Shown: positions 31,565-47,359 of the stretch, piece after piece
Numbering within the stretch: the stretch's first letter is position 1
How the letters are laid out: each line of letters opens with the position of its first letter
DNA from: Lachnospiraceae bacterium
GTDB taxonomy: Bacteria > Bacillota > Clostridia > Lachnospirales > Lachnospiraceae
Assembly (NCBI GenBank): GCA_015057555.1
Contig: SVEC01000001.1
Span: 1 to 64,000, forward strand
Direction: 5' to 3'
Length of the DNA: 64,000 nt
Translations under genes and position numbers: made by a program
Notes under the pieces: generated by a model
Seen by the model: the letters and a program-made list of their open reading frames with translations, nothing else
Database searches by the model: none
Told to the model about the DNA's origin: nothing

Positions 31565-31700
31565 GAAATCAAAAAATGGGCGAGATAATTTTTATTCCGG
31601 CCGCGACAGGGATGGGGGTAAGCTGACCGTTTTAAGTGTCAGCGGTGCCCCGCCCTAGGCAGGCCGGCCAAAAACTATCCTACGCCCATTTTTTGATTTC
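31565..31700 (+). ncRNA. Structured RNA-like element, copy 1
   Basis: An 18-bp outer helix (31565-31582 with 31683-31700) encloses helix 2 CCGGCC/GGCCGG, internal loop GCGA/GCA, helix 3 GGGATGGGG/CCCCGCCC resting on CAG/CTAG, and apical hairpin GCTGAC/GTCAGC with TTTTAAGT in the loop. The GC-rich core stands out from the AT-rich surroundings. Conserved single-stranded parts recur in the two other copies while helices 1 and 3 differ. It lies between tcdA and a convergent gene, so the outer helix with its six T may also terminate transcription. Confidence 0.75.
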
Positions 31701-31718
31701 GTACGGAATAAATTCCTA

Positions 31719-31922
31719 CTACACGTCTCTCTTTGCAAGAAGCCCATAGAAGGTGATGAGATACAAACCACAAAGACCTACTAAGTCATAAACAAGTCTG
31801 GTAAATACAGTACCTTCACCAAAGAGGGCTGATACAAGATTGAAATCGAAGAAACCTATGAGTCCCCAGTTAATTGCACCAATAATGGTAACAGTAAGGG
31901 CAAAGTAATTTAAAAATCTCAT
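31719..31922 (-). CDS. DUF378-family small membrane protein
   Basis: Protein of 67 residues with two hydrophobic helices: FALTVTIIGAINWGLIGFF, then LVYDLVGLCGLYLITFYGL. GAINWGLIG is the hallmark of the DUF378/YuzA family. The start at 31922 has GGAGG six bases upstream; the longer frame from 31979 lacks one. Function is unknown in the family. It converges on RNA element copy 1. Confidence 0.85.
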   Translation of the reverse strand: MRFLNYFALTVTIIGAINWGLIGFFDFNLVSALFGEGTVFTRLVYDLVGLCGLYLITFYGLLAKRDV

Positions 31923-32042
31923 ATTATACCTCCATAAACACATTTTTGTGCTTACAACTATGGTTGCCAATTTACACAATAATATGCAAAATAAAGATTA
32001 AAATTTGTTAAAAATTTCGACCATTCTAAAGGTTCATTTATA

Positions 32043-32070
32043 TTGAATTATTTTATTAATGTGTTATAAT
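32043..32070 (+). promoter_or_regulatory. Promoter of the PurF paralogue
   Basis: TTGAAT (32043-32048) and TATAAT (32065-32070), 16 bp apart. No purine riboswitch is visible in the short leader. Confidence 0.6.
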
Positions 32071-32124
32071 CAAACTTGCGAAAAATGTAGCTGATTGCGA
32101 AAGCAATATATGGAGGAAATAACA

Positions 32125-33531
32125 ATGGGCGGATATTTTGGAGTAGCCTCAAAAGAGGATTGTGTATTCGATTTATTTTTTGGAACAGATTACCACTCAC
32201 ATCTTGGAACCAGACGTGCCGGTATGGCAGTATATGATGATGAAAATGGATTTGATAAGGCAATCCATAACATAGAGAATTCACCATTTAGAACTAAGTT
32301 TACAAAGGAAGCTAATTCCATGAAGGGTAACCTTGGAATTGGTTGTATATCAGATTTTGAGGCACAGCCTATATTCGTGCGTTCACATCATGGTTCATTT
32401 GCAATTACCACAGTTGGTAAGATTAATAATGATGATGAAATTATAGATAAGATTTTAAAGGATAGAGTACATTTCTTTGAAATGTCAAATGGTGAGATTA
32501 ACGCTACAGAGCTTGTGGCTGCAATCATTAACCAGAAGGATAATTTTATCGATGGAATTAAGTACGCTCAGGAGGTTATTGATGGTTCTATTTCTATGCT
32601 GATACTTACTCCAAAGGGAGTTTATTGTGCCAGAGATAAATATGGTAAGACACCTGTTGTTATAGGTAAGAAGGATGGTGCTTATTGTGCCAGCTTTGAA
32701 TTTTTCGCATTTGTAAATCTTGGATATGAGAAAGAGAGAGAGCTTGGTCCTGGAGAGATAGTTGTTATGACTCCGGATGCTTGTAAGACCTTGGTTGCTC
32801 CTGGTAAGGATATGAAGATGTGTACCTTCCTCTGGGTATACTACGGCTATCCATCATCAGCTTACGAGGGTGTAAGCGTTGAGGAGATGCGTTACAGATG
32901 TGGACAGATGCTTGCGAAAAGAGATACTGAAGAGGTTGATATTGTAGCAGGTGTACCTGACTCTGGAACAGCCCACGCTATAGGCTACTCACATGCATCA
33001 GGAAAGCCATTTACCAGACCATTTATCAAATATACACCAGCTTGGGCCAGATCATTTATGCCAACTATCCAAAGTAAGCGTAAGATGATAGCTAAGATGA
33101 AGCTTATCCCTGTAGAGGACATTATTAGAGGTAAGAGAATGCTTCTTATCGACGACTCTATCGTAAGAGGAACTCAGCTTCAGGAGACTTCAGATTTCTT
33201 GTATGAGAAGGGGGCTAAGGAGGTTCATATTAGACCAGCTTGTCCACCTATATTATATGGTTGTAAATATCTTAACTTCTCCCGTTCAAATTCAGAGATG
33301 GATTTGATAACTAGAAGAGTTATCGCAGAGCTTGAGGGCGATAATGTAAGTCAGGAGACATTGGATAAGTATGCCGACCACAACACTCCAGAGTATGCAA
33401 ATATGGTGGAGAAGATTAGAGAAAAATTAGGATTCACATCCCTTCGTTTTCAGAGACTTGACGATATGCTTGATTCTGTTGGAATTGATAAATGTAAGCT
33501 TTGTACTTACTGTTGGGATGGAAAACAGTAG
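32125..33531 (+). CDS. PurF-like amidophosphoribosyltransferase lacking the N-terminal cysteine
   Basis: Resembles glutamine PRPP amidotransferase, the first enzyme of purine synthesis. The phosphoribosyltransferase half is intact with the PRPP motif LLIDDSIVRGTQL, and the C-terminus keeps CKLCTYCW. The glutaminase half begins MGGYFGVASKEDC instead of the usual MCGIFG-type start, so the Cys that hydrolyses glutamine is absent. GGAGG eight bases before the ATG confirms this start. It may use free ammonia, or have a regulatory or different role. It has its own promoter and terminator, with no pur genes beside it. Confidence 0.85.
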   Translation: MGGYFGVASKEDCVFDLFFGTDYHSHLGTRRAGMAVYDDENGFDKAIHNIENSPFRTKFTKEANSMKGNLGIGCISDFEAQPIFVRSHHGSFAITTVGKINNDDEIIDKILKDRVHFFEMSNGEINATELVAAIINQKDNFIDGIKYAQEVIDGSISMLILTPKGVYCARDKYGKTPVVIGKKDGAYCASFEFFAFVNLGYEKERELGPGEIVVMTPDACKTLVAPGKDMKMCTFLWVYYGYPSSAYEGVSVEEMRYRCGQMLAKRDTEEVDIVAGVPDSGTAHAIGYSHASGKPFTRPFIKYTPAWARSFMPTIQSKRKMIAKMKLIPVEDIIRGKRMLLIDDSIVRGTQLQETSDFLYEKGAKEVHIRPACPPILYGCKYLNFSRSNSEMDLITRRVIAELEGDNVSQETLDKYADHNTPEYANMVEKIREKLGFTSLRFQRLDDMLDSVGIDKCKLCTYCWDGKQ

Positions 33532-33550
33532 AAATTAATATAAAAATATA

Positions 33551-33597
33551 ATATAACCTAGCGTCAGGTATTGCTTGTGACGCTAGGTTATATTGTA
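33551..33597 (+). terminator. Terminator after the PurF paralogue
   Basis: ATATAACCTAGCGTCA and TGACGCTAGGTTATAT form a perfect 16-bp stem with an 11-base loop. Confidence 0.88.
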
Positions 33598-33648
33598 TTA
33601 TGGGAGAAAATAATATAGAATTATACTATCTAAAGGGGAGGAAACACT

Positions 33649-34374
33649 ATGCTAAAAATTCAAAATCTAACAAAATGCTACAAGGGTAGTGATAAGGGAG
33701 TACATAGATTAGATATACATATAAATCATGGGGATATCTTTGCCTTTATAGGTCATAATGGAGCTGGAAAAACAACAACCCTAAAATGTGTAACTGGAAT
33801 TCACGACTTTGACGAGGGTGAGATAATTATAGATGGAATTAACCTAAGGGAGAATCCCTTGGAGTGTAAGAGAAGGTTTGCCTATATCCCTGATAATCCG
33901 GATTTGTATGAGTATCTGACTGGTATACAGTACCTTAACTTTGTGGCTGATGTATTTCAGGTGGGAGCTAAGGAGAGAAGAGATAAGATAGAAAAGTATG
34001 CAGGTGCCTTTGAGATAACTGAATCACTGGGTGATTTGATATCAACATATTCTCATGGTATGAAGCAAAAGCTGGCTATAATATCAGCCTTGGTTCATGA
34101 GCCTAAGCTTCTTATATTAGACGAGCCATTTGTAGGTTTAGACCCTAAGGCAGCAGTGATACTTAAGGATATTATGAGAGAAATCTGCCAAGATGGTGGT
34201 GCAGTATTCTTTTCAACCCATGTCCTTGATGTGGCGGAGAAGCTTTGTAACAAGGTGGCTATTATTAAGGATGGAAAGCTCCTTGCCAGTGGAAATATGG
34301 ACGACATAGTTAAGGATAATAAGTCCTTAGAGGATATCTTTATGGAGGCGGTAAATGATGGTGAAACAGATTAA
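33649..34374 (+). CDS. ABC exporter ATPase
   Basis: ATPase of 241 residues of the ABC-2/drug-type exporters: Walker A GHNGAGKTT, signature YSHGMKQKLAII, Walker B LLILDEPFVGLD and the switch His in FFSTHVLDVAE. GGGGAGG precedes the ATG. The permease gene starts inside its last codons (20-bp overlap), so the two are made together. The cargo is unknown. Confidence 0.88.
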   Translation: MLKIQNLTKCYKGSDKGVHRLDIHINHGDIFAFIGHNGAGKTTTLKCVTGIHDFDEGEIIIDGINLRENPLECKRRFAYIPDNPDLYEYLTGIQYLNFVADVFQVGAKERRDKIEKYAGAFEITESLGDLISTYSHGMKQKLAIISALVHEPKLLILDEPFVGLDPKAAVILKDIMREICQDGGAVFFSTHVLDVAEKLCNKVAIIKDGKLLASGNMDDIVKDNKSLEDIFMEAVNDGETD

Positions 34375-35950
34375 GACATTGTCAAAGCTAGAGCTTGCTA
34401 ATATATTCTCCTTAAATGTTATTCGCCACACTAAGGATAAGAAGTCTAGAAATACTGGTGTTGCTCTTGGTATTACTATAGGCATTCTTATGGTAATGGC
34501 TATAACGTATGTAGGTGGTATGTGTTATGGCTTTATAAAGCTTGGGGCGACGGAAATAGTACCTGCTTATATAGTTTTTATGAGTAGTATATTTGCACTT
34601 GTTTTTTGTGCTTTTAAAGCAGGAAAGATAATGTTCAAAGAAAACTGCTATGATATCCTCACTTCCATGCCTATAAGAAAGTCTGCTTTTGTTATAAGCA
34701 GATACATTAGGCTTTATGTGGATGGACTGATTGTGACATGCCTTGTTATGGTACCTGGTATAGCTGTGTATGTTGCTATGGTTAATCCAGGAGTAGTAGC
34801 TGTAGTGTTAGGACTTTTATCAGTGCTTATAGTCCCTATTATACCAATAACTTTGTCAGTTCTATTAGGGCTTGTAATTACAGGTATATCCTCAAGGATG
34901 AAGAATAAGGTTCTTTTTGAGACTGTTTTTGTGGTGGCAATAGTAGTAGCGATGTTTGGCCTTACAGCGGTAGTTCCAACTGAGGAGACAGAAGGCTTTG
35001 ATTTGCAGGCATTAGAAGGTATAGCTAAGAGCTTGTTGGATAAGCTCTATAAGTTCTATCCGCCAACAGCCTGGTTTGGAAAGACTTTAGGTGAGGGAAA
35101 TATACTTGGACTTGTAATTGGAACTATTGTATCAGTGGGAATTTTAGTATTAGTACTATCGATTACAACTATAAACTTTGAGAAGATTAATACAGGACTT
35201 TATACTAACACAGCTAAGCATGATTACAAGCTTGGAAATTTAGAAAAAAGATCGTTGATGAAGTCCCTTGTTTTTAGGGAAGCAAAGAGATATTTTTCCT
35301 CAGGAACCTATGTTACAAATACTATAATAGGACCTGTTATGGCTGTGATATTTGCATGTAGTTTGTTATTTGTGGATATGAATGATGCATTTAAGGGATT
35401 ACCCCTTACTATAGATATAAATGCAGCCATACCAGTTTTATTTGCAGGGATATTAGTACTTAATGCGCCTATAGCTACATCGGTATCTATGGAGGGTAAG
35501 GAGTTTTGGATTATTAGAACCCTGCCTGTGCTAAACAGAGATATTCTTAAATGTAAGCTTATGTTTAGTATTATGTTGCTTGCACCATTTTATATAGTGG
35601 GTGAGGTAATTATGATAATAGCATTAAGACCATCTATTATGGAACTTATTTGGATGATAGCACTTCCTGTGGCTATAATGATATGTACTTTAGAGGTTGG
35701 CTTGGCTGTTAATCTTAAATTCCCTAAGTTAAAGTGGGATAGTGAGGTAGAAGTTGTAAAGCAAAGCGCATCAACCATGATAGGGGGATTAGACGGATTC
35801 TTGATAGCCTTGGTAGCTGCCATACCTCTTGTTTTGGTATCTGAAATGTATTATGGTTTAGCGGCATGTATAGAGTTTTCTATAGTTGTATCAATAACGC
35901 TATGGGTGAATTCTTGGAATAACAAATTCAATTTAGACAGTTTGTCTTAA
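34355..35950 (+). CDS. ABC exporter permease, large
   Basis: Membrane protein of 531 residues with about 12 hydrophobic segments (for example ITIGILMVMAITYVGGMCYG and PIIPITLSVLLGLVITGI), similar to large ABC-2-like permeases paired with a single ATPase in Firmicutes. GGAGG lies six bases before the ATG at 34355; a second ATG follows at once. It overlaps the ATPase gene by 20 bp and ends at a bidirectional terminator. Size suggests both membrane halves may lie in one chain. Substrate unknown. Confidence 0.78.
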   Translation: MMVKQIKTLSKLELANIFSLNVIRHTKDKKSRNTGVALGITIGILMVMAITYVGGMCYGFIKLGATEIVPAYIVFMSSIFALVFCAFKAGKIMFKENCYDILTSMPIRKSAFVISRYIRLYVDGLIVTCLVMVPGIAVYVAMVNPGVVAVVLGLLSVLIVPIIPITLSVLLGLVITGISSRMKNKVLFETVFVVAIVVAMFGLTAVVPTEETEGFDLQALEGIAKSLLDKLYKFYPPTAWFGKTLGEGNILGLVIGTIVSVGILVLVLSITTINFEKINTGLYTNTAKHDYKLGNLEKRSLMKSLVFREAKRYFSSGTYVTNTIIGPVMAVIFACSLLFVDMNDAFKGLPLTIDINAAIPVLFAGILVLNAPIATSVSMEGKEFWIIRTLPVLNRDILKCKLMFSIMLLAPFYIVGEVIMIIALRPSIMELIWMIALPVAIMICTLEVGLAVNLKFPKLKWDSEVEVVKQSASTMIGGLDGFLIALVAAIPLVLVSEMYYGLAACIEFSIVVSITLWVNSWNNKFNLDSLS

Positions 35951-35963
35951 TAAAAATTTTATA

Positions 35964-35996
35964 GAAAAAAGGGGGATGGAAATCCCCCTTTTCTTA
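35964..35996. terminator. Bidirectional terminator
   Basis: AAAAGGGGGAT and ATCCCCCTTTT pair perfectly around GGAA, between the exporter permease and the convergent DUF3137 gene. Confidence 0.9.
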
Positions 35997-36977
35997 AAAT
36001 AAATTATCCTTTGCTAGTATCTCATCAACCACAGCAAGGATACGATTTAATTCCCCTCTCATCTGCTGGCGACTATTATCAAGAGATTTTTTACTAATAA
36101 CAGTCTTTGTAATCTCAAAAGAATCTCGTCCAGTATTAAGTGCTATAAAAGCGTTCTGACCTCTGAATTCAATATTTGTATACCCATATGCAAATTCATC
36201 AGCCTTAATAATGTTTTCCATAAACTGAGGCGTTAATATGTAAAATGACATTTGCTGGTTGCTAGTTCTGATTTCAAACTGATTATTGAAAACTTCATTT
36301 TCTACCTCTATAGTTTCATCCTTAGTTTTGATGCCTAGAACATCTGCTGCACCACTAAATACATTTGATAAAAATTCTTTTTCTTTACGAGGATTCTTAC
36401 GCTCCTTAATCTTTACAAATCCTTCTATCTTCTGCTTTAACCCAAGATTAATAAGGTGTCCCTTAAATACAGTTCGATAAGTGGTGTTAGTGTGTCCATC
36501 ATCATCGGTATCTGTATCCTCCTGTTCAAGGTGTAAATCGCAGTAGGAAAGCGCAACACCCCTATATGTACCCTTTATGTAATCGCTGATGGTTATTCTA
36601 TCGTATTTTGGAATAATAGTACATTTTTTTATAATATCTAAAGTGTCTTTTGGGCTTGGAGTGTACTGGGTAACCTCAAGTCTTTCGGCTAATACATCCT
36701 TTACCACATACTCACCTACAAAGGTCTTAAGCTTGCTAGCTTGTTTACTACTTATCTTAGAACAGATAATGGCTACAGGAATACTAACAACACCGACAAT
36801 GGTTATTGTTTTCCACATACCTCTGCCACCTAGGGCATAGTTAAATAAAAGTCCTAGTGGGAACCAAATAATACAGAAATAACTAATCACACAAATAAAC
36901 TTACATAGCTTCATAGTTGTTTGGTAACTTCTTATTTTGCTTACAATTTGATTATCGCTCAATCCTGTATTGCTCAT
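35994..36977 (-). CDS. DUF3137-family membrane protein
   Basis: Protein of 327 residues with two membrane helices near the N-terminus (about 25-50 and 55-75), then a soluble domain of about 240 residues. The layout and YRGVALSYCDLHLEQ, FKGHLINLGL and FEIRTSNQQMSFYILTPQ suggest DUF3137, a family of unknown function. The start at 36977 has GGAGG upstream; an in-frame ATG five codons earlier overlaps it. A second member lies divergently at 37170. Confidence 0.75.
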   Translation of the reverse strand: MSNTGLSDNQIVSKIRSYQTTMKLCKFICVISYFCIIWFPLGLLFNYALGGRGMWKTITIVGVVSIPVAIICSKISSKQASKLKTFVGEYVVKDVLAERLEVTQYTPSPKDTLDIIKKCTIIPKYDRITISDYIKGTYRGVALSYCDLHLEQEDTDTDDDGHTNTTYRTVFKGHLINLGLKQKIEGFVKIKERKNPRKEKEFLSNVFSGAADVLGIKTKDETIEVENEVFNNQFEIRTSNQQMSFYILTPQFMENIIKADEFAYGYTNIEFRGQNAFIALNTGRDSFEITKTVISKKSLDNSRQQMRGELNRILAVVDEILAKDNLF

Positions 36978-37169
36978 AGTTTTCCTCCACATTGTAATAT
37001 ATTATCCATTACATTTTACACAGATTCATCATTATAAAAGGGTCTAATGTAGAAAAAATACAATGATATATAATCATATAGGGCAATTTGTTGGCTTGTG
37101 TAGAAAGCTTAGCTATGTTAGTATTTTTTATATGATTAAACTCAAAAGATGAGGATTAGGAGGTAGAGT

Positions 37170-38057
37170 ATGGGGGCGTACGAATTAATGAAACAGCTTA
37201 ATGCATTGAGGAGTAGGATAATATTTCAAGAATATTTTCCACTTATTGCATATGGGATTGCTTTTCTATTAACTATACTAGGAGTACAAAAAGATGTAAA
37301 AACAGGAATTAGTATGACGTTTTTCTTTTTTGTAATTGCCACTGTAGCTGTAGCTGTTATATGTTCGGGTAGAAATAAACTAAAAAGACGATTCGTTGAA
37401 TTATATAAGGAGTCCTTTGTCACTACTGTGGTTAGTTCCTTTTTGGAGGGTACAACCTACAGAGATTATAGAGGTTTTTCACAAATGGATGTTGCCACCT
37501 TTGGTCTTGTAAAGGTGGGAAATGTATTTAACTCAGAAGACTTGATCTGTGGTAGTTATAAGGGCGTTGATTTTCGTCAAGCCGATGCGACTATTTTGAA
37601 TGTGACTGAGGTTGATGGAGAAAAGCATATTGAACAGTACTTTTCGGGAAGATTGTTTGAGTTTACCTACCCTGGGAAATATGTTCAAAATGTAAAGGTG
37701 TTTTCTCATAATTTCAAGATATCTTTAAATTTAGATGCTCCAATTATTGACTTGGAAAGTGTGGATTTTAATAATGCCTTTGATGTATATACCATAGAGC
37801 CTGTAGATGCATTTTACATACTTACTCCTCAGGTAATGGAGAGATTAGTAAAGCTTCAGAGAAGATATAATAATATAGGATTTAGATTTGGAGATAAAAG
37901 GGTTTGTGTAGCTATTGATGGAATAAATTCCTTTGAGCCGGATTACAGAAAGAAGATATCCTACCTTGAAGAGAAGGAAAGACTAAAAGGGGAATTCAAT
38001 GTGATTACTGAAATGATAGAACTTCTAGGTTTGATTCCAGAGGATGATAAGGAATAA
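37170..38057 (+). CDS. Second DUF3137-like membrane protein
   Basis: Protein of 295 residues built like its divergent neighbour: two N-terminal membrane helices (about 20-60), then a soluble domain with CGSYKGVDFRQADA, FSGRLFEFTYPG, FDVYTIEPVDAFYILTPQVME and GFRFGDKRVCVAIDG that aligns by eye with YKGTYRGVALSYCD and FYILTPQFME of the other protein. AGGAGG precedes the ATG. The two are diverged paralogues sharing one 190-bp intergenic region, possibly co-regulated. Function unknown. Confidence 0.72.
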   Translation: MGAYELMKQLNALRSRIIFQEYFPLIAYGIAFLLTILGVQKDVKTGISMTFFFFVIATVAVAVICSGRNKLKRRFVELYKESFVTTVVSSFLEGTTYRDYRGFSQMDVATFGLVKVGNVFNSEDLICGSYKGVDFRQADATILNVTEVDGEKHIEQYFSGRLFEFTYPGKYVQNVKVFSHNFKISLNLDAPIIDLESVDFNNAFDVYTIEPVDAFYILTPQVMERLVKLQRRYNNIGFRFGDKRVCVAIDGINSFEPDYRKKISYLEEKERLKGEFNVITEMIELLGLIPEDDKE

Positions 38058-38074
38058 TTTTTAGAATAAAATAT

Positions 38075-38103
38075 GAACCTTTTTCCTTTTCAGGACAATA
38101 TTT
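38075..38103 (+). promoter_or_regulatory. Candidate ECF-sigma promoter before the metalloprotease gene
   Basis: GAACCTTTTT begins 84 bases before the start codon. Roughly 20 of 27 positions match the block at 6222, which lies 81 bases before the ECF sigma gene. No consensus sigma-A boxes are apparent in this gap. Confidence 0.5.
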
Positions 38104-38158
38104 ATTAAGAGGCTAAGGTATTGATAAAACTGTTGTGTTGAATATTAGGAGGAAGCAG

Positions 38159-39625
38159 ATGAAAAAGGTAAGGTTATTAATAACTATTATGATTTGCACG
38201 TTATTGCTAGGTGGCTGTGGAGAATCACTTAATAAAAAGGAAGCAAAGCAATTAAAGGAAAATGCTAAAATATACTGTGATGAGGTACATAAACGTCTGG
38301 CTCAGGAGGAAAAGTATGGCAATGCAGTATTGCTAGAAGCATTTGTTTATTATATTGATATCTACGATAATTCAGAGAGACCGGATGCTGCAAATGTATA
38401 TTCAAAGTATCAGCTAGAGGATGGTTCAATTATATACTTTAATACCATGATTTCTGATATGAAGGGATTAGGAGAATTAACAGATAAATCTTTCTATTTT
38501 CTGCCTTTTGAAGAACGTGAAGAACAGTATTTAGTATATAGGGAGGCTGCAGAGACTGGAAACCTTCGTGGGGATAAGTTAAAATCAGTAGGTGAAGGTG
38601 TATATGCTAGGGAAAGTGAAACAGGTGCTTCATATTATTTTATGGTAGATATAGATAATATTGACACAGCTTCAACTGCCGAAGCTAGCGCAACCACTGA
38701 AGTAAGCACAATCACAGAAGTAAGCACAACCACCGAAATGGAAGTTTCAAAACCAGTGCAGGAACCACTAAAACTTAGTGGAAATCCTGAGGATGAGTAT
38801 GTTATGACAAAGCCTGAATATGTTGAGACTGAGAAGTACATTTTATTTCTAGATGAGGGTATTAAAATATATGGTAATACTCCAGAATTGATAGCTTATG
38901 TAATGGAACTAACAGAAACGGAGGCTGGACTTACCTTAAATAATGATTACGGATATGAATCTTGGGGGACCTCAGGACCGCAGTATTATTATGATGGTAC
39001 TAATTTTGAAGGAGTTGATCCTAACTGCGAGAAATTTCACATATATGTAGTTCCTGATGAGATAAGTGTTCCATGTAGTATGCCAAGCGCGGTTGTACTA
39101 AATAACATAGATTTAGAATTGGCAGCAGGAGAAGGCTGGACCTTGGTGCACGAGTATACTCATAGTCTGCATGCTTCCAATGGAGTGAATTTAGGTAGAA
39201 TAATGGAAGAAGGCTTTGCAACGTATGTTTGTGGCAAAGTAACACGTAAAGATGCAGGGATTCCATTTAATTTTAATGCAAACCTAAACTATTCTTCTTA
39301 CGATAGAGAAATTACAAGGGATAATGCGGAGGAAGTGTTCAAAGAAGAATTTGAAGATGGTTGGGAAAATTACTTGTATGGATATCGATTTATGACATTT
39401 TTATATGAGGAGTATGGAGAGGACATATTCCATGATATATTAAAGGATGCAACCTTAAATCCACCAGAGGGTGTAGACCATTTCGAAAATAAGGATGCTA
39501 TACCATATATAAAAAAGCACACTTCAGAGGATGTGTTTATAAAATATGGTGATTGGCTAGTAGATAATAAGGAAATGTTTGAAGCCTGGAATACGGTAGA
39601 TGTAGAATCCTTAGAAGATAACTAG
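38159..39625 (+). CDS. Lipoprotein with a gluzincin-type metalloprotease domain
   Basis: Surface lipoprotein of 488 residues. The signal peptide ends at Cys20 (LLLGGC). After an N-terminal domain of about 160 residues comes a Thr/Ser/Glu-rich linker (ASATTEVSTITEVSTTTE), then a protease-like domain with zinc motif HEYTH (331-335) and a downstream EEGFA (350-354) that can supply the third ligand, as in gluzincins. It likely cuts proteins or peptides at the cell surface. The start at 38159 has AGGAGG six bases upstream. The shared promoter-like block suggests ECF control. Confidence 0.8.
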   Translation: MKKVRLLITIMICTLLLGGCGESLNKKEAKQLKENAKIYCDEVHKRLAQEEKYGNAVLLEAFVYYIDIYDNSERPDAANVYSKYQLEDGSIIYFNTMISDMKGLGELTDKSFYFLPFEEREEQYLVYREAAETGNLRGDKLKSVGEGVYARESETGASYYFMVDIDNIDTASTAEASATTEVSTITEVSTTTEMEVSKPVQEPLKLSGNPEDEYVMTKPEYVETEKYILFLDEGIKIYGNTPELIAYVMELTETEAGLTLNNDYGYESWGTSGPQYYYDGTNFEGVDPNCEKFHIYVVPDEISVPCSMPSAVVLNNIDLELAAGEGWTLVHEYTHSLHASNGVNLGRIMEEGFATYVCGKVTRKDAGIPFNFNANLNYSSYDREITRDNAEEVFKEEFEDGWENYLYGYRFMTFLYEEYGEDIFHDILKDATLNPPEGVDHFENKDAIPYIKKHTSEDVFIKYGDWLVDNKEMFEAWNTVDVESLEDN

Positions 39626-39637
39626 ATGATACATAAT

Positions 39638-39668: not shown

Positions 39669-39708
39669 TTAAATCCATTTATGCTGGTATGTGGAAATAT
39701 GTAAATTG

Positions 39709-40092: not shown

Positions 40093-40134
40093 TTTAATAA
40101 TCCCTTTCTAATTCATTTATTTCTCCATATGTAT

Positions 40135-40593
40135 TTATATATCCCCATTTAGCTTAAATGTACTGCTTTCAGCCTTTTTAGCCAGTTCACTGGCTTCATT
40201 TTCCATTCTTTGAAGATGCTTCTTCATAGTAGGATATGTGGTTACATCCTTGTATATGAAATATAAAGCAGCTACAAACAAGAAGGTAGATATTCCTATG
40301 GTAAACGCCATAGAGATTCCAAACAGTGGCAGTGCCTTTATAAGTGTAGCACCTGTACCTATAAGTGAAACGATGGTTCTAAGATAGGAGAGATGTGTCT
40401 GCTCCACAGCCAGTTTACTGTTGGTAAATGCAAGGTCTGTTCTGATCTTAGAAAGCTCAGTTCGCTCCACGGCTAATGCATTCTGATTATGTGCATAAGC
40501 CTGCTTTGGTTTCATCTTCTCAGGAAGCTCTCTAGGCTCTCCTGATGCAATTTCAGCTGTAAATTCTATTTTATCCTTTGTTTTATTTCCCAT
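40135..40593 (-). CDS. DUF202-like membrane protein
   Basis: Protein of 152 residues. The central NALAVERTELSKIRTDLAFT and VEQTHLSYLRTIVSLIG resemble the DUF202/YidH motif (RTxLAxxRT), followed by two hydrophobic helices (about 78-92 and 94-112). The N-terminal 30 and C-terminal 30 residues are charged and cytoplasmic. Function is not known for the family. It lies between the amino-acid importer operon and a small lipoprotein gene on the same strand. Confidence 0.65.
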   Translation of the reverse strand: MGNKTKDKIEFTAEIASGEPRELPEKMKPKQAYAHNQNALAVERTELSKIRTDLAFTNSKLAVEQTHLSYLRTIVSLIGTGATLIKALPLFGISMAFTIGISTFLFVAALYFIYKDVTTYPTMKKHLQRMENEASELAKKAESSTFKLNGDI

Positions 40594-40643
40594 AAGCCAC
40601 CTCGATACTTTTATATGAAGACTGTCAAACCAGTCAACGCAAG

Positions 40644-41417
40644 TTAGTGTGAAACCTTTCCTAAGAATTCCCTCATTCTTTCGTTATCCGAACCAAATAC
40701 ATCCTCAGGACTTCCACTTAATGCTACCACACCCTTATCCATAAATACAACCCTATCGGATATATTCTTGGCGAAATTCATCTCGTGGGTAACGATAACC
40801 ATAGTCATCTTTTGCTCAGCCAGAGACTTAATGACCTTCAGTACTTCACCGGTAAGCTCAGGATCTAGGGCACTGGTTGGCTCATCGAAGAACAATACAT
40901 TTGGCTTTAAAGCAAGTGCTCTTGCGATGGCAACTCTCTGCTGCTGACCACCGGAAAGCTGTGAAGGATAGCTGTTTGCCTTATCCTCTAAGCCCATCTT
41001 CTTAAGTAGGTCCATAGCCTCGGCCATAACCTCACTCTTGTCTCGCTTTTGAACTGATACAGGTGCGTCTATAATATTCTGCATTACTGTAAAATGTGGA
41101 AATAGATTAAAATTTTGGAATACAAGTCCAAAGTTCTTCTTGATTTCCTTTAGCTTGGCAGGCTTTGCATAAACTGACTTACCGTCGACTATGCTAACTG
41201 CCTTTTCTCCCATATAGCTCATATCACCATAATCCATGGTTTCAAGCATAGTAGCGATACGAAGAAGTGTTGACTTTCCAGAACCGGATGGACCGATAAT
41301 AGAAAGCACATCACCCTCATATACGCTAATTGAAATATCATCTAATACCTGAAGGTCACCAAATGATTTCTTAATATTATTCATCTCAAAGTATATTTCT
41401 TTTTGAATACCTGACAT
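40644..41417 (-). CDS. Polar amino-acid ABC importer ATPase (GlnQ/HisP type)
   Basis: ATPase of 257 residues: Walker [11 protein letters not shown]-loop [15 protein letters not shown], signature [15 protein letters not shown] and Walker [16 protein letters not shown], all diagnostic of the polar amino-acid family. A short insertion ([20 protein letters not shown]) is usual in Clostridia. It is the third gene of an importer operon (binding protein, permease, ATPase) on the minus strand; the permease ends 13 bp upstream. Confidence 0.93.
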
Positions 41418-41430
41418 CAGCTATGACCTC

Positions 41431-42078
41431 CTAACTGTAATAACTCATTTTCTTCTCTAAGCGACCCATTACAAAGGCAACTAAAGCATTGAAGATGTAA
41501 TAGAATACTGCAGCAATTACAAATGGCATCATGCTGGTTTCTGCGGCAGCTATCTGCTTTGCCAAAGTAAACATCTCTATGTAGGTAATAGAGAATGCAA
41601 GAGATGTATCCTTAACTAATGTGATAACCTCGTTAGTTATGGCTGGAAGGATAATCTTAATAACCTGTGGGAGAATAATCTTGAAGAAGCTTTGAGCCTT
41701 AGAATAACCAAGAATCTGACCTGCCTCATACTGTCCCTTGGGAATAGCCTCTATACCTGAACGGTAAATCTCAGCAAAGTATGCAGCGTAGTTAATGGAA
41801 AATCCAACTATAACTGCAGGGAATCTCCATCCACTTATAGACCAGCCAAAAAGGTAAAATGGAAAGAAATACCATACCATAAGCTGTAGCATAAGAGGAG
41901 TACCTCTTAGTACGGATATAATAACGCTGACAAAACCGCTTATTAACTTGTTCTTAGACATTCTTCCAAAGGCAATAACTAAACCTAATGGTAATGAGAA
42001 GAGCAGTGTAAGGAAGAATATTCCCATAGTGCTCAACATACCGGAAGAAAGCTGCTGTAGCATAACCTGAAAACTCAT
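41431..42078 (-). CDS. Polar amino-acid ABC importer permease
   Basis: Membrane channel of 215 residues with about five helices and the HisM/GlnP-type motif PLMLQLMVWYF and YFAEIYRSGIEAIPKGQYEA followed by the EAA-like loop GQILGYSKAQSF. It belongs with the flanking ATPase and binding protein. A stable hairpin separates it from the binding protein gene, a common way to make the binding protein in excess. Confidence 0.92.
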   Translation of the reverse strand: MSFQVMLQQLSSGMLSTMGIFFLTLLFSLPLGLVIAFGRMSKNKLISGFVSVIISVLRGTPLMLQLMVWYFFPFYLFGWSISGWRFPAVIVGFSINYAAYFAEIYRSGIEAIPKGQYEAGQILGYSKAQSFFKIILPQVIKIILPAITNEVITLVKDTSLAFSITYIEMFTLAKQIAAAETSMMPFVIAAVFYYIFNALVAFVMGRLEKKMSYYS

Positions 42079-42123
42079 GTCTTATGTAACTCCTGTATAT
42101 AGTTCAAATTTTATCAAATAATC

Positions 42124-42156
42124 AAATCAACTGGAGAATTGCTCCCCAGTTGATTT
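42124..42156 (-). promoter_or_regulatory. Intra-operon hairpin between binding protein and permease genes
   Basis: On the minus strand AAATCAACTGG...CCAGTTGATTT forms an 11-bp stem topped by GGAG/CTCC. No T-run follows, so it is more likely a message-stabilising or partial termination element than a full terminator. Confidence 0.65.
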
Positions 42157-42173
42157 CTAGTAATTAGTAAAGC

Positions 42174-42974
42174 CTACTCGAATGAAAGGCAAGTCATATC
42201 CTCTAAGCCATACTTCTTAGCTAATTCGTCAAACTTACCGTTCTCCTTAAGTGTCTTAAGAGCCTTCTCAACATCGTTCTTAAGCTCTGTGTTACCAAGC
42301 TTAAAGCCGATACCATACTGCTCAGCATTTAAGTGCTCATCAAGGATGATGAACTTTCCATCATCACGGCTCTCAATCTGGTACTTAGCAACACCGATAT
42401 CCATAGCGATAGCATCAACTGCGCCAGCCTCAAGCTCAAGGAATGCAGTGTTGTAATCGCTGAACTCATTAAGCTCTGCAAATGTATCTGCAAGGGCCTT
42501 CTGAGCCTCTGGGTCTGAGAGAACATCAAGGGCAGCAGAAGCAGCCTGAACACCAACCTTCTTACCGCTAAGACCTGCAAAATCAGTAATACCTGAATCA
42601 GCAGCTACAACAATAACCTGGCTGTTATCTACATAAGGAACTGACCACTCATATAAGTCCTCACGTCCATTGATTGTAAAACCATTCCAGATACAGTCGA
42701 TAGAACCTGAATTAAGCTCATTATCCTTGTTGTCCCAAGCGATAGGCTGCTTTACAAGCTCCCAGCCATTAAGCTTACAAACCTCTTCAGCGAGCTCAAG
42801 GTCAAAGCCTGTGTACTCGCCATTCTCATCCATGTAACCATATGGTGGATACTCAGCGTCAAAGCCAACTGTAAATGTATCCTTCTTCTCACCACAGCCT
42901 GTAAGTGTAGTTGCCATCATTGCTACTGCGAGAAGACCTACGCTAAGATTCTTAACAAATTTTTTGATTTTCAT
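42174..42974 (-). CDS. Amino-acid ABC importer substrate-binding lipoprotein
   Basis: Extracellular binding protein of 266 residues (SBP family 3). Signal peptide and lipobox TLTGC (Cys27), then the standard order: FTVGFDAEYPPYGYMDENGE, the hinge region, and the C-terminal LNAEQYGIGFKLGNTELKND...ENGKFDELAKKYG. The ligand is probably a polar amino acid or cystine-like compound, not definable from sequence. First gene of the operon, with its own promoter and a palindrome in the leader. It gives a useful contrast with the permuted protein at 48861. Confidence 0.9.
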   Translation of the reverse strand: MKIKKFVKNLSVGLLAVAMMATTLTGCGEKKDTFTVGFDAEYPPYGYMDENGEYTGFDLELAEEVCKLNGWELVKQPIAWDNKDNELNSGSIDCIWNGFTINGREDLYEWSVPYVDNSQVIVVAADSGITDFAGLSGKKVGVQAASAALDVLSDPEAQKALADTFAELNEFSDYNTAFLELEAGAVDAIAMDIGVAKYQIESRDDGKFIILDEHLNAEQYGIGFKLGNTELKNDVEKALKTLKENGKFDELAKKYGLEDMTCLSFE

Positions 42975-43008
42975 AATATGATTCTCCTTTATGTAAAAAT
43001 GTAAATTA

Positions 43009-43035
43009 CTTTAGTAATATATTAGCATACTAAAG
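43009..43035. promoter_or_regulatory. Inverted repeat in the leader of the amino-acid importer operon
   Basis: CTTTAGTA and TACTAAAG (nine-base arms if A43008/T43036 are included) flank an 11-base spacer, between the promoter and the ATG of the binding protein gene. A candidate repressor site. Confidence 0.4.
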
Positions 43036-43052
43036 TGCTTAAATCCTTTGGT

Positions 43053-43081
43053 ATCGTACCATATTCCACATTTTTAGTCAA
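43053..43081 (-). promoter_or_regulatory. Promoter of the amino-acid importer operon
   Basis: Minus strand TTGACT (43076-43081) and TACGAT (43053-43058), 17 bp apart. Confidence 0.65.
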
Positions 43082-43204
43082 TGAAAGATGGGTGTTAGTA
43101 GGTATAATTTGAGTTTTTGGAGGATATAATGTGATAATTGGATTTATGGATGTGAAAATCTTATGGATGGTTAAGATTTAGTTAAGAAAATTGCTAAATT
43201 CTGT

Positions 43205-43233
43205 TTGTATATATCAATTTAATGTGATAGACT
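43205..43233 (+). promoter_or_regulatory. Possible promoter of the AGCS symporter gene
   Basis: TTGTAT (43205-43210) and TAGACT (43228-43233), 17 bp apart, with TGTGA just before the -10 (extended -10-like). Confidence 0.45.
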
Positions 43234-43285
43234 AATAAAGGTTTTAAATTTAACTATATAACAAAAGAAAGGACGAGAGATTTTT

Positions 43286-44716
43286 ATGGAAAAGTTTAAT
43301 GAAATTTTAACTGCCATCGATGACTTTGTCTGGGGAGTACCTCTTATGGTTCTTATTATGGCAGGTGGACTCTTACTCACAATTAGAGTAGGACTTCTTC
43401 AGGTTAGAAAGCTTCCTCTTGCGCTTAAGTGGATGGTTAAGAACGAGGAGGGTGCAGAAGGAGAGGTTTCTTCCTTCGCAGCTCTTTGTACTGCTTTGTC
43501 GGCTACAATAGGTACAGGTAACATCGTAGGTGTTGCTACAGCTATACTTTTAGGTGGACCTGGAGCACTTTTCTGGATGGTAGTTGCAGCATTCTTTGGA
43601 ATGGCAACTAAGTACGCAGAGGGACTTCTTGCAGTTAAGTATCGTGTTATTGATGAAAGTGGTCACTCATTAGGTGGACCTTTCTATTACATAGAGAAGG
43701 GTATGGGCGACAAGTGGAAATGGCTTGCTAAGTTCTTCGCCTTCTTCGGAGTATGTGCCGGCTTACTTGGTATCGGTACATTTACACAGGTAAATGGTAT
43801 CTCATCAGCTGTTAATACATTCTTTGATCCAACTAACAGCTCAACAGTTAAGATTCCTGGTATTGGTGAGTATTCATGGTCAGTAGTTATTGCATCACTT
43901 GTTCTTGCAATAGTTGTTGCTCTTGTACTTATCGGAGGAATTAAGAGTATATCAAAGGTATCACAGATAGTAGTTCCATTTATGGCTATTCTCTATGTAT
44001 TAGCTGCTCTTATTCTTATTATCAGAAATATTACTGAGGTACCTGATGCAGTTGTTACTATTGTAAAGGGTGCATTTAATCCACAGGCGGTTGCAGGTGG
44101 TGTAACAGGTAGCTTCCTTGTAGCTATGCAGAAGGGTGTTGCAAGAGGTATCTTCTCTAATGAGGCTGGTCTTGGTTCTGCACCTATCGCAGCTGCAGCA
44201 GCTCAGACTAAGGAGCCTGTAAGACAGGGTCTCGTTTCTATGACAGGTACATTCCTTGATACAATTGTTATCTGTACTATGACAGGTATTTCAGTTGTTC
44301 TTACAGGAGCTAATGAATATGCTGCTCTCAATGGACTTGAGGGTGTAGATGTAACAATTCACGCATTTAAGCAGGGGCTTCCATTCCCAGAGCAGGTATC
44401 AGCAGCTATCCTTATGCTTTGCCTTGTATTCTTCGCGTTTACTACAATCCTTGGATGGGATTACTACTCAGAGAGATGTCTTGAGTACTTAAATGGTGGA
44501 AACAAGAAGGGAATCATGGTATTCAGATGGTTATACATCCTTGCAGTATTCATCGGACCATATATGACAGTTTCAGCAGTTTGGACTATCGCAGATATCT
44601 TCAACGGTATGATGGCACTTCCAAATATGATTGCCCTCTTCGCACTTAGCGGAATTGTTGCTAAGGAAACTAAGGACTTCTTTAAGAGACGTAAGGCTGG
44701 AGAAGTAGAAGAGTAA
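43286..44716 (+). CDS. AGCS-family sodium:alanine/glycine symporter
   Basis: Membrane carrier of 476 residues with 10-11 helices, importing alanine, glycine or a related amino acid with sodium. Family motifs are clear: FAALCTALSATIGTGNIVGV, MATKYAEGLLAVKYR, GGPFYYIEKGMG and RGIFSNEAGLGSAPIAAAAA. GGACGAG precedes the ATG and codon choice suggests strong expression. Single-gene unit; a terminator and RNA element copy 2 follow. Confidence 0.93.
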   Translation: MEKFNEILTAIDDFVWGVPLMVLIMAGGLLLTIRVGLLQVRKLPLALKWMVKNEEGAEGEVSSFAALCTALSATIGTGNIVGVATAILLGGPGALFWMVVAAFFGMATKYAEGLLAVKYRVIDESGHSLGGPFYYIEKGMGDKWKWLAKFFAFFGVCAGLLGIGTFTQVNGISSAVNTFFDPTNSSTVKIPGIGEYSWSVVIASLVLAIVVALVLIGGIKSISKVSQIVVPFMAILYVLAALILIIRNITEVPDAVVTIVKGAFNPQAVAGGVTGSFLVAMQKGVARGIFSNEAGLGSAPIAAAAAQTKEPVRQGLVSMTGTFLDTIVICTMTGISVVLTGANEYAALNGLEGVDVTIHAFKQGLPFPEQVSAAILMLCLVFFAFTTILGWDYYSERCLEYLNGGNKKGIMVFRWLYILAVFIGPYMTVSAVWTIADIFNGMMALPNMIALFALSGIVAKETKDFFKRRKAGEVEE

Positions 44717-44791
44717 GGTGAGGTAAGGTTGAGTAAGGCTTAGCCCCTCCCATACTGTAGAACACAAAAATTTTATAATAATGAATTATTA

Positions 44792-44844
44792 AGGCATTAA
44801 TCGTACAAAATATTCTTAAATTATTGTATGATTAATGTCTTTTT
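44792..44844 (+). terminator. Terminator after the AGCS symporter gene
   Basis: AGGCATTAATCGTACAA and TTGTATGATTAATGTCT pair over 17 bp (two G-U) with a 15-base loop and a short T-run. The gap 44717-45016 holds this, then RNA element copy 2. Confidence 0.82.
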
Positions 44845-44856
44845 AATTATGCGTAA

Positions 44857-44983
44857 AACAGGATGCGCCAATAAACTTTATTCCGGCCGCGACAGTGGTC
44901 GGGACTAAGCTGACATTTTTTAAGTGTCAGCGTGGACCGACCCTAGGCAGGCCAGCCAGTAAAATAAATTCGCGCATCCTGTT
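44857..44983 (+). ncRNA. Structured RNA-like element, copy 2
   Basis: Same architecture as copy 1. Outer helix AACAGGATGCGC/GCGCATCCTGTT (12 bp, unlike copy 1), helix 2 GGCC/GGCC, loop GCGA/GCA, helix 3 GGTCGG/CCGACC (different bases, same pairing) and apical GCTGACA/TGTCAGC with TTTTTTAAG. It lies 33 bases before the PTS gene start, so it is in the likely 5' leader of that message and could act as a cis-regulator; it may also be read as part of the 3' side of the upstream gene. Confidence 0.75.
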
Positions 44984-45016
44984 GTTGTATGAATTGAAGG
45001 TAAAAAGGAGAATAAT

Positions 45017-47203
45017 ATGAAAGATAAAATTTTTGGTGTTCTACAGCGTGTAGGAAGAAGCTTTATGCTTCCAATTGCAATCTTACCTGTTGCAGGACTT
45101 CTGCTTGGTATAGGTGGCTCTCTGACTAACCTCACTATGCTTGAGACGTATAGCCTTATGGGGATTATGGGACCTGGTACTGTGCTAAATGCAGTATTTC
45201 AGGTTATGAGTAAGGCGGGAGATATAGTATTTGCAAATCTTCCAATATTATTTGCCATAGGTGTAGCCATTGGTATGGCAAAACGAGAGAGGGAGGTTGC
45301 TGCTTTAGCTGCGGTTATAGCTTTTCTTATTATGCACGCATCTATCAGTGCACTTATAGTAATTAATGGTGGTTCAGACAACCTGCTAGAGGGAGCAGTT
45401 ACCTCTGTGGTAGGTATAGAGTCACTGCAGATGGGTGTATTTGGTGGTATTATCGTAGGTCTTGGTGTGGCGGCATTACACAACAAATTTTATAAGATAG
45501 AGCTTCCTCAGGTGCTTTCCTTCTTTGGAGGAACTAGATTTGTGCCAATAATAAGTGCACTGGTATTTACATTTGTGGGAATATTGATGTACTTTATCTG
45601 GCCACCTATCCAGGCGGGAATATATGCTGTGGGCGATGTGGTACTTCGTTCAGGATATGCAGGAACCTGGGTGTATGGTCTTATGGAAAGGGCGCTTATT
45701 CCATTTGGCCTTCATCACGTGTTTTATCTACCTTTCTGGCAGACGGCTGTAGGAGGAACCTTGGAGGTGGGAGGACAGCTTATAGAGGGAGCTCAGAATA
45801 TATTCTTTGCCCAGCTGGCAGACTCAAATGTGGAGCAGTTTGCAGTATCAGCAACTAGATTTATGTCAGGTAAGTTCCCGCTTATGATATTTGGTCTTCC
45901 AGGAGCAGCCTACGCTATGTACAGATGTGCCAAAGCGGAGAATAGAAAAAAGGTTGGTGGATTATTACTTTCTGCAGCCTTAACGTCTATGTTAACGGGA
46001 ATAACTGAACCTATAGAGTTCACCTTTTTGTTCGTAGCACCACTACTGTATGTAATTCACTGTGTATTTGCAGGTCTAGCATATATGCTGATGCACGTGT
46101 TCAATGTAGGTGTGGGAATGACCTTCTCTGGAGGTCTCATAGACTTATTCCTCTTCGGTATACTTCAGGGAAATGATAAGACTAATTGGATATGGGTTGT
46201 AATTGTTGGTGTATTCTACTTTATTGTTTACTATCTCTTGTTCTCGTTCCTTATAAAGAAATTTAACTACAAGACTCCGGGTCGTGGAGAGGATGAAGAG
46301 GTTAAGCTCTACACTAGAAATGATGTTGAAGCAAGAAAGAATGGTGGAGCTGGAGTAGTAGATGTTGGTGTAGCTGGTGGGAATAGCTCTCGTCAGATGT
46401 CAGACACCGACCGAGTATCAGCAGGAATCCTAATTGGTCTTGGTGGTAGAGATAATATTTCTGATATAGATTGTTGCGCCACAAGACTTAGATGTACGGT
46501 GTTTAATCCGGATTTAGTTAATCAGGATAGGCTTAAGTCCACAGGAGCATCAGGAGTAATAGTCAAGGGTCAGGGAGTGCAAATAATTTACGGACCAAGG
46601 GTATCAGTTATTAAATCAAACCTTGAGGATTATATGGATAGAAATATATCCGAGGACCTAAATGATTATAGCTTTGGGGATGCAGATAGTACCGTAAGCT
46701 TTCATGATTTAGAAAATATAAAGCCTGATGAGGATGATGATAGAACACATAAGGTAGTAACCATATCATCACCTTTAGCTGGACTTGTAAGAAAACTGGA
46801 GGACACACCAGACGAGGTGTTCTCTCGAAAAATGCTAGGTGACGGTGTAATCATAGAACCAACAGAGGGAACTGTATATGCTCCTGAGGATGGAACAGTA
46901 GCCATGTTATTTGACACCAAGCATGCAGTAGGCTTTGAAACAGACTCAGGTATAGAACTTTTAATTCATGTGGGAATCGATACAGTAAATCTTGGCGGGA
47001 AGGGCTTTAACCCAGTAGTTAAAGTGGGCCAACATCTTAAGAAGGGTGAAATTATAATGAACTTTGACCTAGAACAGATACGCTCTACAGCCAAGGCTAT
47101 GTCCACACCAGTAATATGCACAAATCTAGCTGAAGGACAGAAAGTCAAGGTGTTAAGGTATGGAGATGTCAAAGTTGGAGAACAACTGATGAGTATAGAA
47201 TAA
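45017..47203 (+). CDS. PTS glucose/N-acetylglucosamine-type transporter, EIICBA in one chain
   Basis: Imports and phosphorylates a sugar. Residues about 1-400 are the IIC membrane channel (PIAILPVAGLLLGIGG, GLHHVFYLPFWQTAVGG, GITEPIEFTFLFVAP); IIB follows with the phosphocysteine in DIDCCATRLR (Cys486 or 487); IIA at the C-terminus carries the phosphohistidine in LLIHVGIDTV (His651). All three domains in one 728-residue chain resemble NagE/PtsG-type proteins. The sugar (glucose, GlcNAc or an alpha-glucoside) is not certain. Flanked on both sides by the structured RNA element. Confidence 0.92.
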   Translation: MKDKIFGVLQRVGRSFMLPIAILPVAGLLLGIGGSLTNLTMLETYSLMGIMGPGTVLNAVFQVMSKAGDIVFANLPILFAIGVAIGMAKREREVAALAAVIAFLIMHASISALIVINGGSDNLLEGAVTSVVGIESLQMGVFGGIIVGLGVAALHNKFYKIELPQVLSFFGGTRFVPIISALVFTFVGILMYFIWPPIQAGIYAVGDVVLRSGYAGTWVYGLMERALIPFGLHHVFYLPFWQTAVGGTLEVGGQLIEGAQNIFFAQLADSNVEQFAVSATRFMSGKFPLMIFGLPGAAYAMYRCAKAENRKKVGGLLLSAALTSMLTGITEPIEFTFLFVAPLLYVIHCVFAGLAYMLMHVFNVGVGMTFSGGLIDLFLFGILQGNDKTNWIWVVIVGVFYFIVYYLLFSFLIKKFNYKTPGRGEDEEVKLYTRNDVEARKNGGAGVVDVGVAGGNSSRQMSDTDRVSAGILIGLGGRDNISDIDCCATRLRCTVFNPDLVNQDRLKSTGASGVIVKGQGVQIIYGPRVSVIKSNLEDYMDRNISEDLNDYSFGDADSTVSFHDLENIKPDEDDDRTHKVVTISSPLAGLVRKLEDTPDEVFSRKMLGDGVIIEPTEGTVYAPEDGTVAMLFDTKHAVGFETDSGIELLIHVGIDTVNLGGKGFNPVVKVGQHLKKGEIIMNFDLEQIRSTAKAMSTPVICTNLAEGQKVKVLRYGDVKVGEQLMSIE

Positions 47204-47220
47204 ATTCCAAGTGGATAAAA

Positions 47221-47348
47221 AAGGGGGCTGTGCCAGTAAACTATATTTCGACCGCGACAGGGTGATGCGTAGCTGACCGTTTTAAGTGTCAGCGAAGCAT
47301 TATCCCTAGGCAGGTCGGCCGATAAAGTTTGTTTTGCACAGCCCCCTT
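47221..47348 (+). ncRNA. Structured RNA-like element, copy 3
   Basis: Outer helix AAGGGGGCTGTGC/GCACAGCCCCCTT (13 bp), helix 2 CGACC/GGTCG (changed on both strands relative to copies 1 and 2), loop GCGA/GCA, helix 3 GGGTGATGC with GCATTATCCC, apical GCTGAC/GTCAGC with TTTTAAGT. It begins 17 bases after the PTS stop and ends 12 bases before the end of the convergent gene, so the outer helix can terminate both. Confidence 0.75.
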
Positions 47349-47359
47349 ATGAAATTCAT

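Follow-up and report, generated by a model that had tools for sequence, protein, structure and literature searches.

A structured element of about 130 bases occurs three times in the 64,000-nucleotide stretch of Lachnospiraceae DNA analysed here (contig SVEC01000001.1, hereafter the window) and tens of times in the genome from which the window comes. It is probably a structured repeat, dispersed between genes, that fills the apical portion of intrinsic terminator hairpins; its outer helix, judged from its sequence, resembles the stem of a bidirectional terminator. An earlier note, made from the letters of the window, had described three copies in the same order and orientation with GCGACAG, a GCTGAC hairpin and CCCTAGGCAG in common. 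All three copies and all of these shared parts are present in the sequence, and the observation is thus confirmed, and is larger than stated. The interpretation given with it, an unnamed RNA element, is partly supported: the element is indeed structured and conserved, but it was overlooked that it is a genome-wide dispersed repeat with a terminator-like outer helix.

All features of the three copies are given on the forward strand. Copy A (31565..31700; covariance model (CM) match 31569-31698, 120.7 bits) lies between convergent ThiF-family and DUF378 genes, as identified by Pfam. Its outer helix, P1, is a perfect inverted repeat of 18 nt (5' arm 31565..31582, 3' arm 31683..31700), and the arms enclose the conserved internal-loop strands GCGACAG (31603..31609) and CTAGGCAG (31655..31662), the latter located by sequence and by column counts over 98 copies, and the apical hairpin P4 (31622..31643), which is evident in both sequence and fold. 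Copy B (44857..44983; CM match 44856-44986, 139.4 bits) has same-strand genes on either side, for a Na:alanine symporter and for PTS EIIC/EIIB/EIIA; it ends about 30 nt upstream of the PTS start and its U-tract is weak. Fold and inverted repeat both give its P1 arms (44857..44868 and 44972..44983), and these perfect 12-bp arms form part of a 24-nt arm pair that matches at 83%. The GCGACAG strand of this copy is at 44889..44895 and the CTAGGCAG strand at 44943..44950. Copy C (47221..47348; CM match 47221-47350, 118.1 bits) is flanked by convergent PTS and ABC-transporter ATPase genes (Pfam), with P1 arms at 47221..47233 and 47336..47348, found as an inverted repeat, and loop strands at 47254..47260 (GCGACAG) and 47306..47313 (CTAGGCAG). 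The outer helix is therefore perfect over 18, 12 and 13 bp in copies A, B and C, as had been noted. Each copy folds far better than expected (z = -8.1, -8.3 and -8.4 for A, B and C), none of 200 dinucleotide shuffles equalling them, and the reverse strands fold about equally well (z = -10.4, -8.3 and -7.0).

The anatomy of the family was derived from an alignment of 98 copies, comprising 40 from the source genome (G000), 39 from G012, 6 from G008, 7 from G018, 5 from G031 and 1 from G032, with copies of other genomes only partly taken in. P1 varies in sequence from site to site with nearly perfect pairing, and between convergent genes it often has A- and U-rich tracts on its flanks. Inward of P1 come an AT-rich linker helix and then P2, of CGGCC/GGCCG type, followed by an asymmetric and almost invariant internal loop (GCGRCAG / CTAGRCAG), a fast-changing helix P3 and the capping hairpin P4. 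Across the alignment pairing holds in 96.3% of cells, against 74.8% in shuffles; two-sided changes affect 26 of 29 pairs, double-change cells number 571 compared with 133 after shuffling, and the covariation score is 0.565, against 0.142 for shuffles and 0.042-0.111 for slid registers. Every P1 pair is represented by four to six standard pair types.

Two-sided changes are found in all four helices. The earlier remark that helix 3 changes its sequence while remaining paired holds across all 98 copies. The description of the outer bases as entirely different is too strong for the whole family, in which TGTGC/GCACA is common in the inner portion of the outer stem. Selection on structure had also been proposed, and the covariation is real; since paired, compensatory switches are a known mode of evolution in terminator stems (PMC5381666), covariation in P1 by itself need not signify a new non-coding RNA. 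A portion of P1 seems to move together with the element, because GGCTGT/GGATGT-type stems recur among the copies and in none of 31 other hairpins in the carrier loci (in non-carrier loci GGCTGT appears in 2/48 hairpins and GGATGT in 1/48). In line with this, orthologous P1 helices of G000 and G012 are only somewhat more alike (mean likeness 0.60) than all G000 by G012 pairs (0.47) or copies within G000 (0.54).

The core raises the question of function. Columns of the internal loop are nearly invariant in the 98 copies, with one exception position on each strand, and these two positions covary (A.G 74, C-G 10, G.A 9, A-U 3, C.A 1, A.A 1). An A/G exchange at the same positions is also found in seven copies of a divergent form, type II, and in some orthologous copies P3 has been swapped as a block with its pairing kept. 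G.U cells outnumber A.C cells by 52 to 30 (p 0.02, relatedness between copies ignored), a mild excess and a weak discriminator of strand. Of the alternative offered earlier, RNA or single-stranded DNA, neither is clearly favoured, both strands folding well. The invariant loop with its covarying positions, the type II exchange, the block changes of P3 and the G.U excess favour an unlikely alternative, that a functional RNA domain came first, the conserved loop binding a protein or ligand and acting at mRNA 3' ends (through stability, processing or release of a 3' sRNA), with duplication and gene conversion spreading copies that are kept for this function. Against it stand the equal folding of the reverse strand, the occurrence of the element in both orientations beside unrelated genes (Pfam, window neighbours), and its patchiness within the genus, where the type I model has no match in 31 of 36 congeners.

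The CM search of the 2.5-Mb source genome returned 52 matches, of which 40 exceeded 70 bits and are counted as strong copies, 11 were weak opposite-strand echoes and 1 was a weak extra. Three congeners carry tens of copies and a fourth 13, counts that may include echoes, and type II, a long-hairpin form, is present as seven copies in two further congeners. As far as searched, the family is confined to one genus. A search for the core pattern in 392 genomes of the order, which besides G000 included one congener only (G026), yielded 15 matches in G000 and a single one in each of 15 other genomes, against 13 for the reversed control; none of these 15 single matches, as printed, was element-like by eye. 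Within the genus the core pattern gave one match in G014, which was not element-like by appearance. The type II model had no match in 397 genomes of the family, an empty answer that in itself shows nothing, the printed rows from the genus being G000 and G026 only, with G032 and G011 absent. A phage or plasmid origin was considered and rejected: the type I and type II core patterns had no exact match in viral_contigs, and copy B had no blastn match in plasmids or phages.

Comparison of four sites between species showed the element to be missing from some species at every one. At site A it is present in G000 and G031, with plain terminators in its place in G008, whose arms are those of the G031 P1, and in G012 and G018, whose arms are unrelated; the non-carrier G009, called near on sequence identity alone, has no hairpin there. 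The loop of the G008 hairpin resembles, by eye, the linker sequence of the element, so this hairpin may be what a deletion left behind and not an empty target. At site B, G031 lacks the element before the same PTS gene, and at site C it is lacking in G008; the plain hairpins at these two sites have arms unlike the element P1, indicating that terminators also turn over wholesale. Site D is in the window, a plain terminator-like hairpin at 16233..16258 (strand undefined) with 11-bp arms and the loop TAAA. G000 has no element here, whereas G008, G012, G031 and, at contig ends, G018 do, and the arms of the G000 hairpin are identical to those of one G008 copy (a second G008 contig, C112, matches the left gene and was left out of this comparison). 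Thus at sites A and D the arms of a plain terminator in one species recur on either side of the element in a second. The change at these sites may have been a gain or a deletion. Two copies (L064 and L148) are each nested inside an older copy, and tandem and inverted pairs (the latter at L149 and L077) also occur.

Such differences between species are the behaviour of a mobile or turning-over repeat. They come near to an outcome that the earlier note had set against its own reading, a transposon end, although none was identified. Dispersal, species variability, nesting and paired copies could likewise come from a conventional MITE or REP-like element that a host transposase mobilises, with a preference for gene ends because other insertions were lost; a convergent gene-end bias is reported for pneumococcal BOX, RUP, SPRITE and IS (PMC3049150). 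This explanation is improbable in view of the ends, whose arms pair but are not conserved in sequence between copies, and of the lack of any target duplication by eye at sites A-D, four sites compared across different species. The Y1 transposase family PF01797, the only family searched, has no match in G000, G008, G012 or G018 and one partial match, a 43-residue open frame, in G031; the lack of a match in the four copy-rich genomes, which are incomplete (G000 to 87%), argues against REP/RAYT mobilisation.

The position of the copies relative to genes is far from random. Neighbours were taken from a crude longest-ORF caller (at least 70 residues for copies; at least 90, and gaps no shorter than 30 nt, for control pairs), and 3 of the 98 copies were excluded for a missing neighbour. 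The remaining 95 comprise 55 between convergent genes, 25 co-directional in the sense orientation, 14 antisense and 1 divergent, whereas 144 control gene pairs without the element, some counted twice where fetched loci overlap, comprise 15 convergent, 90 co-directional and 39 divergent (Fisher, convergent excess p 3e-15, divergent deficit p 6e-9). The median distance from stop codon to element is 28 nt (152 distances). At least 6 T in the 8 nt after the stem, a predicted U-tract only, is found in 31/55 convergent, 8/25 sense and 3/14 antisense copies, and on the other strand in 32/55, 9/25 and 7/14, respectively; the mean T content of the 8 nt after P1 (5.11) is in mild excess over shuffled ends (4.65). 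Among the sense co-directional copies such a tract occurs in 1/16 where the next gene is within 45 nt and 7/9 where it is farther (p 0.0005, for a split picked after the list was seen and copies that include orthologues). Just upstream of start codons, most copies have no strong U-tract and would be read through. A riboswitch or attenuator of the downstream gene, which the position of those 16 of 25 copies (copy B included) at or within 45 nt of a predicted start codon might suggest, is disfavoured and very improbable given the majority between convergent genes, the one strong U-tract among these 16 leaders, the absence of copy B ahead of the same PTS gene in G031, and the lack of a constant position upstream of a related gene set.

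For a repeat housed in terminator hairpins, P1 would terminate transcription and the core would spread by inserting itself into the loops of hairpins, or through recombination among copies, the spreading activity presumably being supplied in trans. Hosts may tolerate or keep copies since P1 would still work as a terminator, and the fold perhaps also shields mRNA 3' ends. The unconserved ends of the element, the lack of a target duplication by eye and the lack of a mobilising enzyme in the Y1 search count against this reading, as do the stems that recur among copies, the wholesale turnover of terminators at sites B and C and the mildness of the T excess after P1. A more specific proposal, which we offer tentatively as a possibility, is a mobile element of a new class, able to recognise the single-stranded apical loops of terminators, its own included, and to insert its structured core there, borrowing the outer stem from the target and leaving termination intact; P3 would then diversify, perhaps limiting recombination among copies. 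If loop-targeting is true, it would let a genomic parasite spread harmlessly, carried within a signal that its host cannot do without. In this family, tens of near-replicate gene-end hairpins with different stems and a little-changed core occur naturally, which would allow termination, 3'-end protection and mobility to be told apart.

The remark that the element resembles no named non-coding RNA family is supported for Rfam: at Rfam 15 gathering thresholds the only match in the whole window is a TPP riboswitch (26132-26243), and permissive scans of the three copies yielded nothing beyond matches with E values of 1.8 to 8.5. The literature listings searched showed no description of it. The skipping-rope RNA motif, itself among the Rfam families, has a long stem, similar to a terminator, whose inner portion is conserved; the element differs in that none of the 4227 Rfam families searched matches it. 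Of 3161 structured-RNA candidates from human microbiomes, 250 are palindromic and 230 of these predicted to be terminator-like (PMC8040213); overlap with the element is possible. REP/BIME repeats with RAYT are likewise extragenic, structured and found, as here, in inverted pairs, but the element has a longer and more complex fold and its four copy-rich genomes gave no match to the Y1 transposase. With intrinsic, bidirectional terminators it shares the P1 stem, the flanking A/U tracts and the gene-end position; the loop of an ordinary terminator is short, whereas the one seen here is a structured module of about 100 nt, conserved across tens of copies. The pneumococcal repeats SPRITE, BOX and RUP appear to be the closest in kind. 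As described in PMC3049150, they are short, dispersed, structured and mutually inserted, and are enriched between convergent genes, as the element is (55/95 copies against 15/144 control pairs). SPRITE is also terminator-like, as is the outer stem here; compared by description, SPRITE has an 18-bp duplex that precedes a uridine-rich tract, whereas the element combines a variable, covarying outer stem with a conserved multi-helix core.

The three copies of the structured repeat of ~130 bases in the window (copy A, 31565-31700; copy B, 44857-44983; copy C, 47221-47348) are present and fold as the earlier note had claimed, as judged by fold and inverted-repeat computation. The note had tied this element to no named RNA family, and an Rfam scan likewise gave no match to it; the scan was judged to be working because a TPP riboswitch scored in it (26132-26243, + strand, above the gathering score). 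By eye, the genes downstream of this riboswitch resemble ABC transporter genes, with a thiamin precursor as the substrate. An inverted repeat of 28 bp, perfect and closed by a loop of 8 nt, lies at 19469-19532 in the window and is longer than the other hairpins listed there.

The proposed covariation was borne out in 98 aligned copies, which include related ones and are hence not independent, with both-side changes in 26 of 29 pairs. Pairing cells amounted to 96.3%, against 74.8% after shuffling, in an alignment fitted to the model and so favouring pairing, and pairing fell to 33-43% when partners were slid by 1-3 columns. Within the outer helix, P1, 93.5% of cells pair, each pair occurring as four to six standard pair types. 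Base 4 of the first strand of the internal loop that follows helix P2 (GCGACAG/CTAGGCAG) covaries with base 5 of the second (A.G 74, C-G 10, G.A 9, A-U 3, C.A 1, A.A 1), and the remaining loop columns are alike in at least 95 of the 98 copies. The earlier note had read the helix covariation as selection on RNA or single-stranded DNA structure; structure is indeed kept, and the excess of G.U over A.C cells (52 versus 30) gives no more than a mild indication that the selected form is RNA of the + strand, on which copies A-C are drawn. The capping hairpin, P4, has an extra mini-stem such as TTGCGAAGCA instead of the usual CGTTTTAAGT-like loop at loci L049, L050, L051, L053, L060, L114 and L120. 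Its loop tends to vary by species: G012 mostly has CGTTTTAAGT, G018 often CGTTTTAGT, and the window's own genome (G000) CGTCTTAAGT, CGTTGTAGT or others, which hints that the copies in one genome evolve in concert.

Places resembling the element in G000 numbered 18 by pattern search and 23 by blastn; with covariance model R1, built from 26 of these copies, 40 copies scored above 70 bits across the assembly of 2.5 Mb. Model searches that covered 36 congeners together with 24 species from elsewhere in the order matched five of the congeners (G008, 31; G012, 47; G018, 45; G031, 13; G032, 2), counts that possibly include opposite-strand echoes. One exact core pattern occurred in 35 stretches of a named genome collection, which may leave out records close to G000, all within three Lachnospiraceae MAGs, RGIG4033 (roe deer cecum), RGIG6221 (sheep rectum) and SIG302; these are G018, G012 and G008, not additional carriers. 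A divergent type II, found six times in G032 (L336, L338-L342) and once in G011 (L337), has the P2 and internal loop of the usual type I and a single long P3, capped by a TTTCA-like loop, replacing P3 and P4; the A/G exchange in the internal loop recurs in these seven copies. Neither type was found in 30 of the 36 congeners by methods that lose weak matches, and searches of phages, plasmids and viral contigs found nothing matching the element at the sensitivity reached. No Y1 transposase was found in the four copy-rich genomes (G000, G008, G012 and G018).

Ninety-five of the 98 copies had neighbours on both sides, 55 lying between convergent genes, 25 in co-directional sense, 14 in antisense and 1 in divergent context; gene pairs that lack an element, drawn from the window plus 60 fetched loci, numbered 15 in convergent, 90 in co-directional and 39 in divergent arrangement. 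The median distance from stop codon to element was 28 nt (152 distances). At least six T in eight were found near the P1 end in 31 of the 55 convergent copies, and, among sense copies, in 1 of the 16 whose end lies no more than 45 nt from a start codon versus 7 of 9 with a farther start, a cut-off picked after the list was seen, with orthologues counted among the copies. This pattern fits a stem that would terminate where termination is useful, the strong U-tract missing where the next gene would be silenced; copy B, before a PTS gene, is an example lacking such a tract. An imperfect hairpin at ~44790-44845 (GGCATTAATCGTACA...TGTATGATTAATGTC, followed by a run of T) immediately precedes copy B. 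It is found in all five aligned carrier species, including G031, which is without copy B, and may be the terminator of the upstream symporter gene or a site of PTS control.

At the place of copy A (site A), G000 and G031 have the element, G008, G012 and G018 have plain terminators, and G009 has no hairpin. The arms of the G008 terminator (AAAAAATATGGGC / GCCCATATTTTTT) resemble those flanking the element in G031, and its loop, which by eye looks like linker sequence of the element, may be what is left of a copy. Site B carries the element in G000, G008, G012 and G018 and only a short hairpin in G031; site C carries it in G000, G012, G018 and G031, with a plain terminator of other arms in G008. 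At site D (16233-16258), G000 has a plain terminator; G008, with two inverted copies, G012 and G031 carry the element there, and G018 does so at contig ends; one G008 copy and the G000 terminator have arms GGGCGAG / CTCGCCC in common. By eye, at least six of the nine non-carriers listed for site D (G033, G009, G004, G036, G001 and G021) have a plain hairpin of other arms. These species differences, with arms common to both states at two sites, indicate from sequence comparison that the element and a plain terminator substitute for each other.

At L064 (G000) and L148 (G008) one complete element is nested inside the core of a second, of which the outer halves are left, decayed in L148; L107 (G012) has two head-to-tail copies and L149 (G008) two inverted ones. 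Half-copies of the 3' side lie just downstream of complete copies at L075 (1656-1669), L118 (2662-2675) and L148 (2646-2659), of which only L148 has a decayed 5' half as well. Some orthologous copies retain P1 but differ in P3, which has changed as a paired block: L132/L085, L133/L093, L075/L135 and L147/L061 have identities of 0.92-1.0 in P1 and 0.46-0.65 in P3. Both helices are retained in L146/L080, L145/L043, L150/L140 (copy C), L152/L047 and L044/L114 (P1 0.92-1.0, P3 0.87-1.0), and P1 identity is below 0.9 in the other orthologous pairs compared. Over 17 G000-G012 comparisons assigned by flanks, with a single G000 copy compared with each of two tandem copies, mean identity of orthologues was 0.60 in P1 and 0.69 in P3, compared with 0.47 and 0.61 over every G000 x G012 pair and 0.54 and 0.62 within G000.

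The bolder reading, a mobility that targets terminator loops, seems rather unlikely. The simplest account, which we favour with moderate confidence, is that of a structured repeat occupying terminator loops, a confidence lowered slightly since P1 is only slightly more similar between orthologues than between copies of one genome. As described in PMC3049150 and the review PMC10969869, the pneumococcal SPRITE is terminator-like, and SPRITE, BOX and RUP are nested and over-represented between convergent genes. SPRITE, with BOX and RUP, is the nearest published kind that we found; however, the outer stem of the present element itself varies and covaries and its inner core is conserved, and we therefore class it beside SPRITE, BOX and RUP as a putative distinct variant.
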